The notes below the pieces were generated by a model. The model ran no database searches and was not told the origin of the DNA. It saw only the letters and a list, made by a program, of their open reading frames with translations. The position numbers and the translations under genes are program-made. From Variovorax sp. YR216 (lineage in GTDB: Bacteria > Pseudomonadota > Gammaproteobacteria > Burkholderiales > Burkholderiaceae_C), in NCBI RefSeq assembly GCF_900107745.1, contig NZ_FNRO01000002.1, positions 1 through 64,000 on the forward strand: a stretch of DNA of 64,000 bases, in the 5' to 3' direction. Below are positions 30,265-34,484 of the stretch, piece by piece (the first letter of the stretch is position 1; the number at the start of each line of letters is the position of its first letter).

Positions 30265-31430
30265 GCGACGGCCCGGACACCAGGAACGAAGCGCCCGAAG
30301 CGCCCCCCGAGGCCGAGCCCGAGCGCGTGTTGCTGCACATGCCGGTGGACGTGCGCAGTGCGTCGCTGGTGGCGCTCGCGGTCCTCGGGAGCGTGTTCGC
30401 GTTGCACTGGGCGGCGGCGGTGTTCATCCCGCTGATGGTGAGCCTGATGCTCACCTACGCCCTGGCGCCGCTGGTCGATCTGCTCGAACGCTGGAAGGTG
30501 TCGCGCTGGGTCGGGTCCGCCGTGATCCTGCTCGCCCTCGGCGGCGCAATGGGATGGACGGGCTATTCGCTCTCCGGCAGTGCGCAGGACCTCGTCGATG
30601 CGCTGCCCGTCGCGGCGCAGAAGCTACGACTCGCCGTGCGCGGCGACGGCCGGGCGAAGGACCCGAGCACGCTCGACACCGTGCAGAAGGCGGCCGCGCA
30701 GATCGAGCAGGCCGCCGAGGAGAATTCGGCCAAGGTCGCTGCGCGCAAGGGCGTCGCGCGCGTGGTCATCGAGCGGCCAGCCTTCAATGTCAGGGACTAC
30801 CTGTGGAGCGGCACGGTCGGCCTGATCGCGGCGGCGGGGCAGCTCACGCTGATCGCCTTCCTGACCTACTTCGCATTGGGCTCGGGGGACACCTTCCGCC
30901 GCAAGCTGGTCAAGATCACCGGCCCAAGCCTGCAGAAGAAGAAGATCACGGTGCATGTGCTCGACGCCATCACGAAGAACATCGAGCGCTTCCTGCTGGT
31001 GCAGATCCTGACCAGCGCGCTCGTCGGCATCGCGACGGGATTGGCGTTCTGGGCCATCGGCCTGGAGAGCGCGGCGGTCTGGGGCATCGTGGCCGGCGTG
31101 ACCAACCTCATTCCCTACATCGGTTCGGTCATCGTGATGGCGACCGCCGGGCTGGTGGCCTTCCTGCAGTTCAACAGCGTGCAGATGGCGCTGCTCGTGG
31201 GCGGCAGTTCGTTGCTCATCCATACCCTGGTGGGCAATCTGCTTCTGCCGATCCTCACCAGCCGGACGAGCCAAATGAACCCGGTGGCGGTGTTCGTCGG
31301 CGTGATCTTCTGGGGCTGGCTTTGGGGCATCTGGGGTCTGCTGCTGGGCATCCCGATCATGATGGTCGCCAAGGCCATCTGCGATCACGTCGAGGACCTG
31401 CAGCCTATCGGGGAACTCCTCGGAGAGTAG
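30261..31430 (+). CDS. AI-2E/PerM family membrane transporter
   Basis: 389 residues from GTG 30261, which overlaps the stop of algR as GTGA; AAGGAG lies 5 bases before it. About eight hydrophobic segments arranged as in PerM proteins: VSLMLTYALAPLVDLLERWK at the N-terminus, LIAFLTYFALGSGDTFRRK in the middle and WGIVAGVTNLIPYIGSVIVM before the C-terminal QMNPVAVFVGVIFWGWLWGI. Members of this family export varied small molecules, and some are Na+/H+ antiporters, so the product is not assigned a substrate. Overlap with algR suggests it is in the same transcript. Confidence 0.88.
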   Translation: MSDGPDTRNEAPEAPPEAEPERVLLHMPVDVRSASLVALAVLGSVFALHWAAAVFIPLMVSLMLTYALAPLVDLLERWKVSRWVGSAVILLALGGAMGWTGYSLSGSAQDLVDALPVAAQKLRLAVRGDGRAKDPSTLDTVQKAAAQIEQAAEENSAKVAARKGVARVVIERPAFNVRDYLWSGTVGLIAAAGQLTLIAFLTYFALGSGDTFRRKLVKITGPSLQKKKITVHVLDAITKNIERFLLVQILTSALVGIATGLAFWAIGLESAAVWGIVAGVTNLIPYIGSVIVMATAGLVAFLQFNSVQMALLVGGSSLLIHTLVGNLLLPILTSRTSQMNPVAVFVGVIFWGWLWGIWGLLLGIPIMMVAKAICDHVEDLQPIGELLGE

Positions 31431-31464
31431 ATCCCATCACCGTCAAGGCCGTGGAGCGTTAGCC

Positions 31465-31556
31465 AGGGCACCCCCGGAACCGGCTTCGCCGGGCCGCCGG
31501 GTGCGCCCCCTGGAAGGGGGTGCAGAGCCACACGAAGTGGGCGAGGCTGGGGGTCA
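31465..31556 (+). repeat. GC-rich palindromic repeat, copy 1
   Basis: About 92 bp between the PerM gene and the 3' end of ppc. It contains CGCCGGGCCGCC, then the imperfect palindrome GCCCCCTGGAAGGGGGTGC (about 31506-31523), then CACACGAAGTGGGCGAG and the closing GGGGGTCA. The final TCA at 31554-31556 is the complement of the ppc stop codon, so the repeat directly supplies the end of that gene. The same elements occur in copy 2 inside ppc. The composition and layout resemble dispersed elements common near gene ends in Comamonadaceae (recalled, not checked here). Confidence 0.7.
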
Positions 31557-34484
31557 GCCCGTATTCCTTAGGCCGGCGGCTACCCCGTTGATGGACATGT
31601 GAATGCCACTGCGGAGCCGTTCGTCGATCTGCCCCGCGCGATAGCGCCGCATCAACTCCACCTGCAGATGGTGCAGCGGATCGATGTACGGGAAGCGGTG
31701 GCGGATCGAGCGTTGCATCTCGGCATTGCCTTCCAGCCGCTGCTTCTCGCCGGTGATGAGCACCAGCGCGTCCGAGGTGCGGTGCCACTCGGCGTCGATC
31801 ATCGAGAACACCTTCTGCCGCAGCTTGCGGTCGGCAACCAGTTCCGAGTAGCGTGAGGCCAGCGCGAGATCGCTCTTGGCAAGCACCATGTCCATGTTCG
31901 ACAGCAGGGTGCGGAAGAAAGGCCACTGCGCGTACATGCGCTGCAGCAGCGCCTGCCGTTCCTTGCGCGCGGCGGGGCTGCCGGCGTTGCCCAGGAACTT
32001 CTCGATCGCCGAGCCGAAGCCGTACCAGCCCGGCAGCGTGAGACGGCACTGGCCCCAGCTGAAGCTCCATGGCACCGCGCGCAGGTCTTCGATGCTGCGG
32101 CTCGGGTTGCGCGAGGCAGGCCGCGAGCCGATGTTGAGCTCCGCGATCTCGCGGATCGGCGTGGCGCTGAAGAAGTAGTCGCCGAAGTTGGGTGTGTCGT
32201 ACACCAGCGCGCGGTACGCGGCCATGCTCGCCGAGGAGAGTTCCGCCGCAGCGGCCATGAAAGTGCTCGGCGCTGCCTTCGCGCTCGGCAGCAGCGTCGC
32301 TTCGAGCGTGGCCGCGACCAGCGTTTCGAGATTGCGGCGCCCGATCTCGTGGTTGGCGTACTTCGAGCCGATCACCTCGCCCTGCTCGGTCAACCGGATC
32401 TGTCCGCGCACCGTGCCCGGGGGCTGCGCGAGGATCGCCTGGTAGCTCGGTCCGCCGCCGCGGCCCACCGTGCCGCCGCGGCCATGGAACATGCGCAGGC
32501 GGATTGGGGCCCCCACGCTCGGCGCTGACGCGTCCTCGCTGCCCCCCGAGGGGGCGCTCGCCCGCTTGGGGCGGCCCGGCGCGGGACTCGGCACGCGGCT
32601 CTCGGCGTTCAGCTCGTCGAACAGCGCCACCAGCGCGAGGCCCGCGCGGTAGAGCTCCCAGTTGCTGGTGAAGATGCCGCCGTCCTTGTTGCTGTCGCTG
32701 TAGCCGAGCATCACGTCCTGCTCGGCGCCCGAGCGCTGGATCAGCCCATGGATGCCCGGCAGCGCATAGAAGGCGCGCACGATCGGCGCGGCGTTGCGCA
32801 AGTCCTCGATGGTCTCGAACAGCGGCACCACGATCAGGTCGCAGGTCGCGCTCTCGGCGAGGGTTCCGCGCAGCAAGCCGACTTCCTTTTGCAGCAGCAG
32901 CGCTTCGAGCAGGTCGCTCACTGTTTCGGTGTGGCTGATGATGTAGTGCCGGATGGCCGCCGCGCCGAAGCGCGCACGCGCGGTGCGTGCGGCGGCGAAG
33001 ATGGCCAGCTCGCTCTTTGCCAATGGGGAGTAGTCCGCATCGGGCACGCGCAGGGGGCGCGCGTCGTCGAGCAGGCGCAGCAGCAGCGTCTGCTTGGCCT
33101 CTTCGGCGAGGGAGGCGTAGCCGGGCTCGATGCGCGCTGTCGCAAGCAGCTCGGCGACGACGGCTTCATGCTTGTCGGAGCTCTGGCGCAGGTCCACCGT
33201 CGCGAGATGGAAGCCGAACACTTCCACGGCGCGGATGAGTGGATGCAGCCGTTGCGCCGCCAGCACCGCGCCATGCTGGTCGACGAGCGATTCCTCGATC
33301 GTGCGCAGGTCGGCAAGGAACTCTTCGGCGTGCAGATAGGGGTTCTGCGGCGGAACCGCGTGACGCGCGGCCTGGCCACCGGTGAGGTCGCGCAAGGTGG
33401 CGGCGAGCCGCGAATAGATGCCGGTGAGCGCGAGGCGATAAGGCTCGTCCACGCGGTGCTCGTTCTTGTCGGGCGAGCGTTCGGCCAGCGCCTGCATCTC
33501 GACCGACACATCCACCAAGGTGGCCGACAACGACAGCTCGCCGCCGAGGTAGTGCACTTCCGTCAGATAGTGGCGCAGCGCCAGTTCGGCCTGGCGCCGC
33601 AGCGCGTATTCGAGCGTCTCTGCGGTGACGTTGGGATTGCCGTCGCGATCGCCGCCGATCCACTGGCCCATGCGCAGGAAAGGCGCCACGGAGGGCACGG
33701 TGTCGCCGTGCGCGAGGGCCTTCTCCAGGTCGGCGTAGACGCGCGGGATCTCGCGCAGGAAGGTGGCTTCGTAGTAGCTCAGCGCGTTCTCGATCTCGTC
33801 GGCGACCGTGAGCTTGGAAAAGCGCAGCAGCCGCGTCTGCCAGAGCTGCGTGACGCGGGTGCGCATCTGCTCTTCGTTCTCCGCGTATTCGATCGGCGTC
33901 AGCGCGTCCTTCTTGCCCGCAAAGGCCAGCTGGCGCAACGCGATCTCGTCGCGCGCCGCGAGCAACTGGGCGATCGCACGTTCGGCATCCAGGATGCTCT
34001 TGCGCTGCACTTCCGTCGGGTGCGCGGTAAGCACGGGCGAGACGTAGCTGTGCGCAAGCGATTCCACGACAGCTTCCGGCTTGATGCCGGCCTTGCGGAT
34101 GCGCGCGAGCGCGGTCTCCAGGCTGCCCTCGGCGCTTTCGCCGGCGCGTTCGGCCTCGGTGCGGCGGCGGATCTGGTGCCGGTCCTCGGCGAGGTTGGCC
34201 AGATGGCTGAAGTAGGTGAAGGCGCGAATCACGCTCACCGTCTCGGCCGCGCTCAGGCCCTTGAGCAGGTTCTTGAGCGCGCGATCGGCGGCATGGTCCG
34301 CATCGCGGCGGAAGGCCACCGAGAGCGTGCGGATCTTCTCGACCAGCGCATACGCCGCTTCGCCTTCCTGCTCGCGGATCACGTCGCCGAGGATGCGACC
34401 GAGCAGGCGGATGTCGGCGATCAGTGGCAGGTCTTCATCGTTGGCTTTCCGCTTGTGGGCGGTCGGGGCGGGGCTCGTCTTCAT
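31554..34484 (-). CDS. ppc: Phosphoenolpyruvate carboxylase
   Basis: 976 residues, longer than the usual 880-930. [20 protein letters not shown] near residue 160 has the catalytic histidine, and [20 protein letters not shown] near residue 666 is the active-site glycine-rich loop. [14 protein letters not shown] and the C-terminal RNTG ending are also typical. The enzyme makes oxaloacetate from phosphoenolpyruvate and bicarbonate, refilling the citric-acid cycle. Residues about 628-659, just before the glycine-rich loop, are a Ser/Pro/Gly-rich segment made by a repeat inserted in frame. The gene runs against the flanking algZR and hem genes. Confidence 0.95.
32509..32600 (-). repeat. GC-rich palindromic repeat, copy 2, inserted in frame in ppc
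   Basis: About 90 bp inside ppc. On the minus strand it reads CGCCGGGCCGCCCC, then AGCGCCCCCTCGGGGGGCAG and AGCGTGGGGGCCCC, in the same order as copy 1. The core palindrome is GCCCCC/GGGGGC around 32541-32555 with a 3-base loop. It translates as about 30 residues between ELNAE and IRLRMFHG with no stop codon, and this explains the extra length of the protein. The repeat sense strand is the ppc coding strand here, whereas copy 1 has the repeat on the plus strand, opposite to ppc. Confidence 0.72.

Follow-up and report, generated by a model that had tools for sequence, protein, structure and literature searches.

Phosphoenolpyruvate carboxylase (PEPC) of Variovorax sp. YR216 carries an in-frame insert of 84 nucleotides (nt) that is a copy of a palindromic repeat dispersed through the same genome. 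The insert lies at 32508..32591 on the minus strand of the 64,000-nt stretch analysed here (the window; positions 1 to 64,000 of contig NZ_FNRO01000002.1), where it enters the ppc gene in the sense orientation and contributes 28 codons (residues 632-659) at a place, hereafter site 1, that is empty in relatives. We think it likely that a small, non-autonomous mobile palindromic repeat landed in ppc with the reading frame left intact, and that it is near-neutral in a tolerant loop of the enzyme. In-frame capture of a palindromic genomic repeat had been proposed in an earlier note made from the sequence alone, and it is borne out by the other copies in the genome and by the empty site of relatives; the span then given, 32509-32600, was off by 1 nt at its start and ran 9 nt too far at its end.

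The interrupted gene is full length. It occupies 31554..34484 on the minus strand of contig C28 of the 7.37-Mb draft assembly (G000; 49 contigs), and its 976-residue product contains the PEPcase domain (Pfam PF00311, 1054.8 bits), matches PDB entries including 1fiy, and agrees in fold with that E. coli enzyme in a structure comparison (Z 34.2, root-mean-square deviation 3.2, 848 residues aligned). The closest named relatives by ppc are Variovorax. Comparison with relatives shows that the inserted peptide follows ELNAESRV, and that site 1 is uninterrupted in five of them: Variovorax BIN18 (L021), L022, L028, L127 (G058) and L128 (G079). In the alignment that the earlier note had suggested, PEPCs of close relatives lack the 84 nt, and one single-contig genome, G084, has the same ppc insert. 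The G000 and G084 inserts differ at 3 of 84 positions, two of the changes being synonymous and one non-synonymous. At 85% G+C the insert stands out from the ppc gene (68%), and its edges are uncertain by about 3 nt because CCG/CCA is present at both ends.

When the insert was used as a DNA query against its own genome, 24 places were found at E<=0.003, the insert itself included, and the best of the other copies was 84% identical over 89 nt (E 2e-20), a value that, coming from a single-sequence DNA search, excludes chance resemblance. We also built a covariance model, R1, from 17 copies; the ppc copy, one of these 17 training rows, matches it end to end (32509..32590, minus strand; 74.9 bits, E 4.4e-9 in a whole-genome search). 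R1 has 23 matches at E<1e-3 in G000, each 74-90 nt long and the ppc copy among them, so the further copies for which the earlier note proposed a search do exist. Its alignment supports four helices. The arms of helix 1 vary between copies yet are often complementary, with 9 of 10 pairs changed on both sides, and this helix is paired in just 64% of cells; the other helices are a long-range pairing of GCCCC with a 3' GGGGGC, a C5/G5 hairpin and a third hairpin. In the structure as a whole, changes on both sides were counted in 46 cells, compared with 18.7 in shuffles, and further pair types, one of five covariation measures, were not above shuffles (27 versus 26.0). As regards the terminal inverted repeats of a miniature inverted-repeat transposable element (MITE), paired arms are present in the repeat, one of them internal. 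An Rfam scan of 31300-32800 returned nothing above the gathering score. At E<=1e-4 and with strict filters, R1 matches occur in 22 of 200 genomes of the order, our own included, and in several families; tandem arrays of the repeat are found in ccsB of G084 and at loci L276 and L302.

A diverged member of the family lies 3' of ppc, at about 31486..31554 on the plus strand, between convergent genes (L121). This is the intergenic repeat, some 950 bp from the insert, to which the earlier note had traced the insert's elements: it is indeed related, with inverted matches to the ppc copy, and at 27 bits with R1 it is a diverged relative. Weak R1 matches 3' of ppc are also seen in L021 (29.5 bits) and in L050/L371 (22.1 bits).

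The copies in G000 fall largely within DNA predicted to be translated. In 15 of the 23, the repeat forms an open reading frame (ORF) of 25-33 codons that bridges two neighbouring genes, starting at or within ~15 nt of the upstream stop codon and ending at or near the downstream start. Pfam matches were obtained for the downstream neighbour of all 15 bridging ORFs and for both neighbours of 12, and the bridged pairs include Sdh_cyt/FAD_binding_2, HscB/HSP70, FliP/Bac_export_3, AlgH-like/RuvX and adenylosuccinate lyase/YaeQ. Four further copies are in frame inside genes, namely ppc and those for an aldo/keto reductase, an acyl-CoA dehydrogenase and CcsB, which brings the copies in positions predicted to be translated to 19 of 23; of the other four, one (L179) fits neither these classes nor that of the three unbridged copies given below. 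Only domain-supported frames were counted, because GC-rich DNA gives long spurious frames and a scan with the insert peptide was noisy. In the reductase the domain match runs across the repeat, and in the dehydrogenase domains flank it on both sides. Domain support is weaker for CcsB, where the repeat precedes the domain match by 19 residues, and that case therefore rests also on empty sites.

Relatives reveal such empty sites at each of these three genes. The insert is missing from 12 of 12 relatives at the reductase, from 4 of 4 at the dehydrogenase and from 11 of the 12 shown at ccsB, the exception being G084 with two copies in tandem, partly truncated (L196, G084:C1:4507120-4508149). All three inserts are 81 nt long, and their edges show a duplication of ~5 nt that is imperfect, with mismatches. 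At a gene junction, L175, which precedes a ROK-family gene, the copy adds 86 nt relative to seven relatives and has an overlapping ATGA on both sides; an eighth, G084, has a longer compound array there. This G084 junction (L314) and two other loci, L295 and L296, contain compound copies in which an extra hairpin block (AAGTCTGCC...GGCAGACTT-like, then GGAGCCGCGGCATTCAG) replaces the first stem; these may represent a subfamily, or else a separate family of repeats.

The lengths of many copies follow a geometry that is compatible with translation. A script was run on 63 loci of G000, G084, G021 and G095 to recognise copies with NTGA-GCGC at the left end (class A). Of the 26 class-A copies recognised, 24 are followed by another NTGA at a distance of exactly 86 nt, and in all 25 with an NTGA within 70-104 nt this NTGA is in the frame that closes the small ORF; the script misses L185, whose geometry is alike, through a filter that requires GGGG. 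Four copies (L177, L180, L284 and L305) have a 1-nt insertion in the third hairpin paired with a right linker that is 1 nt shorter, so that the 86 nt are kept. Since the copies descend from one another, we attach no probability to this geometry, and frame counts are indicative only. In the frames used, the repeat is free of stop codons. The ppc insert is read in the frame of the small ORF of class A, and its peptide is identical to that of L284 at 21 of 29 aligned positions. Five antisense junction copies (L169, L171, L172, L174 and L186) have a Shine-Dalgarno-like GGAGG (AGGAG in L171), ahead of the downstream gene, within an arm of the first stem; reading of the small ORF could conceivably open that arm, a possible translational switch.

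Similar positions are occupied in other genomes. Bridging ORFs were found for 23 of 40 copies that we chose among the best-matching ones of G084, G021 and G095; 14 of the 40 were classed as 'span', and for 13 of these Pfam was run on 20 of 33 spanning frames. At least six of the 40 are in frame within domain architectures, those of UvrA, RecQ, two HrpA-like helicases, a Mur ligase and a 2Fe-2S protein, as judged from domain matches. In the two helicase genes, L294 (G084) and L310 (G021), which belong to two species and were named from their domain order, the repeat lies between the DEAD and Helicase_C domains; HrpA-like helicases are possibly another recurrent landing site.

In ppc, the same loop has received the repeat more than once. 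A search of the genus covered 101 genomes, was the source of G084, and had the loop read in 12 of 30 listed loci; a search of the family, from which the other genomes with a site 1 copy come, covered 399 genomes, of which 372 had a ppc match and 30 loci were listed, so that the counts of ppc inserts are lower bounds, the 27 matchless genomes not being counted as negatives. Among named genomes, the loop was read in all 80 loci and R1 was run on 79 (L051, a near-copy of L050, was left out). R1 matches at site 1 occur in at least nine genomes of eight genera, all in the sense orientation: seven at E<=2e-8 (G000, G084, G342, G397, G414, G616 and G369, whose L371 has the same loop as Xenophilus E41, L050) and two weaker ones (G408 at 6.6e-5 and G649 at 0.003). 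There are also remnants, a short peptide in MHTC-1 and a decayed copy in G340 (10.6 bits, E 7.2). For seven of the eight genera there are insert-free sister species (G058/G065/G079; G548/G669/G612/G472; G380/G481; G495/G629/G686; G505; G500; G313/G440), and for G342 the nearest tree row belongs to another genus. In a tree of 40 PEPCs, for which the site 1 loop was trimmed to its first few residues and which contains the long rows G308 and G649, nine changes are needed at site 1, at least eight of them forced by branches with Shimodaira-Hasegawa-like approximate likelihood-ratio (SH-aLRT) values >=95. This tree and those of 53 and 21 rows were made by a quick method, with SH-aLRT support only.

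Two other loops of the enzyme have also received the repeat. Site 2, empty in YR216 and located by codon arithmetic at about residue 544 (32850..32853, minus strand), has antisense copies in three genera: in MHTC-1, WS11 and WDL1 (Variovorax), in L072/G669 (Xenophilus-like) and in G461, with a remnant in V. paradoxus ISL-3. Site 3, likewise empty and placed by the same arithmetic at about residues 792-797 (32094..32109, minus strand), has antisense copies in G408 and G500, both of one genus. Orientation is therefore fixed for each site, with R1 matches in the sense direction at site 1 and antisense at sites 2 and 3. The earlier note had called an insertion at this position unusual, a judgement that needs correction, since the site 1 loop is a recurrent landing site within the family. 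It had also named an observation that would speak against capture, namely distant PEPCs that share the stretch although the repeat is missing from them. None was found: the related distant loops score as repeat copies, and other long PEPC loops are unrelated to the insert in sequence. Among 12 family matches spanning site 1, eight have an R1 match, G340 has its decayed copy, and G001, G353 and G308 have none. Three long site 1 loops that were considered as inserts, L123 (G071), L124 (G001) and L125 (G078), were rejected, being Ala/Gly/Lys-rich and unrelated to the repeat; they indicate that the site is generally variable in length.

An AlphaFold2 model of the protein (mean predicted local distance difference test score, pLDDT, 80.8) suggests why the site may be permissive. 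Residues 630-656 have pLDDT values <50 and are placed between a helix (604-627) and a strand (662-667), and site 2 likewise falls where helix 522-534 is followed by strand 551-556. The glycine-rich segment at residues 666-678 (32451..32489, minus strand), which we take to be the catalytic loop, is invariant across 53 aligned PEPCs; in the model, loop residues 668-677 directly follow strand 662-667. In barrel enzymes, loops leading from helix to strand are on the face opposite the active site. From this placement we infer that the insert is distant from the catalytic loop in space, near as it is in sequence. The earlier note had put it beside that loop, and in sequence it is, ending ~6-7 residues ahead of FHGRGG as claimed; in space the description is not supported, because in the model strand 662-667 intervenes. 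The same note had asked whether residues 628-659 form a surface loop; the model predicts a loop here, probably disordered and floppy, that joins a barrel helix to the strand bearing the catalytic loop at its far end. Its most likely effect on PEPC is that of a tolerated, near-neutral capture, for which the repeated tolerance of differing peptides also argues.

These observations can be combined into a sequence of events. A copy of the repeat, moved by an enzyme acting in trans, would have inserted into ppc without breaking the frame. The helix-to-strand loop would accept the extra residues, making the insertion near neutral, and copies landing there would survive. Recurrence at site 1 would then reflect the tolerance of the loop, perhaps together with a preferred target sequence, and a frame-compatible geometry may help the family to persist in coding DNA and in packed operons.

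Several observations weigh against this account. We found no mover: the sole RAYT-type gene in G000 has no R1 copy within ~18 kb. The ppc DNA tree of 21 rows joins the insert-free G058/L021 to G000 (support 91) and leaves G084 outside, an order that requires a precise loss, a second gain or poor resolution of the tree, so that one gain with one precise loss, two gains, and a poorly resolved tree are all possible histories of the G000 and G084 inserts; in the protein tree of 40 PEPCs, G084 groups with G058/G065. Three changes in 84 nt between these two inserts are too few to show constraint, and neutrality is something that we infer. The constant orientation at each ppc site hints at insertion directed by sequence, beyond tolerance alone. 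Among the copies of G000, three (L170, L182 and L183) have ORFs on both sides yet form no bridging ORF, the length added by the antisense junction copy L169, upstream of another gene, ranges over 85-89 nt among relatives with differing spacers, and the bridging ORFs themselves vary from 25 to 33 codons. Elsewhere in the order, a bridging ORF is formed by only 11 of the 28 best copies; the 17 without one include copies that are cut by contig ends or lie in arrays.

A bolder extension of the mobile-repeat account would make the element transparent to translation, its length and codons having been shaped by life in translated DNA: 81 or 84 nt within genes and 86 nt at NTGA overlaps, where a small ORF of 29 codons would hand ribosomes on to the next gene, with the ppc loop as a preferred site acquired about eight times. 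We advance this tentatively, judging it a little more apt to be wrong than right. It is allowed by the three lengths, the open frames, the compensated 1-nt changes and the 19 of 23 positions predicted to be translated in G000. Much of this pattern is accounted for by survivorship, in which harmful insertions are purged, and the lower share of bridging copies in distant genomes, 11 of 28, speaks against ribosome pass-through as a general rule.

It is also conceivable, if on balance doubtful, that insertion is directed by the target, the right arm of the repeat pairing with target DNA for which the ppc loops offer good matches; recurrence would then be mutational rather than selective. In its favour, helix 1 covaries between copies, what looks like a target duplication at ccsB and at the reductase overlaps the outer left arm of this helix, and orientation is constant at each ppc site. 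Against this, the comparison covers only six empty sites, the duplications there are short and contain mismatches, the left arm could itself be part of the element, and pairing of helix 1 reaches only 64% of its cells.

Adaptive capture, in which a Ser/Pro/Gly loop alters the regulation or assembly of PEPC and has been acquired repeatedly under selection, strikes us as improbable. Nine changes at one loop, at least eight of them forced by supported branches, two further loops with the repeat in the same enzyme, and a reading frame kept in both G084 and G000 count in its favour; yet frame and peptide are not the same from copy to copy and there are decayed copies (G340, G052), which tolerance fits better than a shared function, and the insert is predicted to be disordered and to be separated from the catalytic loop by a strand. 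We give very little credence to a role of the insert as an RNA or DNA structure within ppc, be it a terminator, an attenuator or a protein site: the helices of the family are paired with covariation, but the ppc copy is no better folded than shuffles as single-stranded DNA (z -0.42, with DNA parameters only), and the G084 copy is changed in its first arm. Ordinary variation in PEPC loop length, unrelated to the repeat, is hardly tenable; loop length does vary, and the G071, G001 and G078 loops are not derived from the repeat, but the explanation is refuted for YR216 by the 84% identity to a genomic copy. An assembly error or a pseudogene can practically be dismissed, since, draft though the source assembly is, the insert is present at the identical site in single-contig G084, the ORF is full length, and a second ppc match in G000, if any, is weaker than about 1e-28.

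How does the repeat compare with known systems, among them REP and REPIN with their RAYT transposase (PMC2817692)? REP and REPIN elements are short palindromes in many copies that are extragenic and flank their RAYT gene. The present repeat is likewise a short palindrome in many copies, and Variovorax genomes carry a Y1 transposase gene (PF01797 was found in 25 of 31 genomes searched, with one Y1 gene in 18 of 19 genomes of the genus). It differs in location, with 19 of 23 G000 copies in predicted translated DNA rather than extragenic, and the flanking arrangement is absent: G000, where this was looked for, has a single RAYT-like Y1 gene (L161, G000:C36 464669-464989) and no R1 match on C36 423394-482912 around it.

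The repeat is probably the Beta-proteobacterial repeat element (BRE), an identification made from described features rather than from sequence. In the portions of its description available to us, full-length BREs are 75-91 bp, high in G+C, present in Bordetella and Comamonadaceae and of unknown function; they occur in tandem and are usually intergenic, some overlapping ORF ends and some lying wholly within coding sequences, with signs of mobility (Hot et al., 2011; PMC3110155). The matches reported here are similar in length (74-90 nt, with inserts of 81, 84 and 86 nt), are likewise spread over several betaproteobacterial families, and include both tandem arrays and some coding copies, whereas the same portions (PMC3110155) describe BRE without reading-frame geometry, bridging ORFs or PEPC copies.

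In mode of insertion the repeat works like the Rickettsia palindromic elements (RPE), which, in the parts of the source at hand, are mobile, ~150 bp long and in frame in unrelated metabolic genes (Ogata et al., 2000, 2002, as reviewed in PMC10969869). Both enter protein genes with the frame kept; the elements in Rickettsia are longer (~150 bp versus 81-86 nt at the exactly measured sites here) and belong to another bacterial class, and most G000 copies are at gene junctions, which they bridge, and not within a gene. The ERIC/RU-1, RU-2 and RU-3 repeats of enterobacteria also carry ORFs, as here, and according to the available part of their description are 103-168 bp long, with fusions largely to hypothetical or small ORFs (Delihas, 2007; PMC2759123); their lengths and hosts are unlike those found here.

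What is new here is the recurrence in PEPC and the frame-compatible geometry. A literature search, read at the level of titles and opening lines of abstracts and not extending to subscription papers, found no paper reporting PEPC inserts, their recurrence or bridging ORFs, and a text search for one peptide word and two DNA words of the repeat brought up no paper containing any of them. In-frame capture of mobile palindromes has so far been discussed mainly for Rickettsia. Here it is seen in a free-living, sequence-rich clade, with clean empty sites in core genes (ppc and ccsB) and with the repeat also in UvrA-, RecQ-, HrpA- and Mur-ligase-type genes of relatives. The system allows one to ask how a mobile element lives in operons without uncoupling translation, and independent insertions in one enzyme loop make it possible to test directly if such inserts bring a benefit or are neutral. 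If our reading is true, site 1 of ppc would be a natural replicated experiment in loop insertion.

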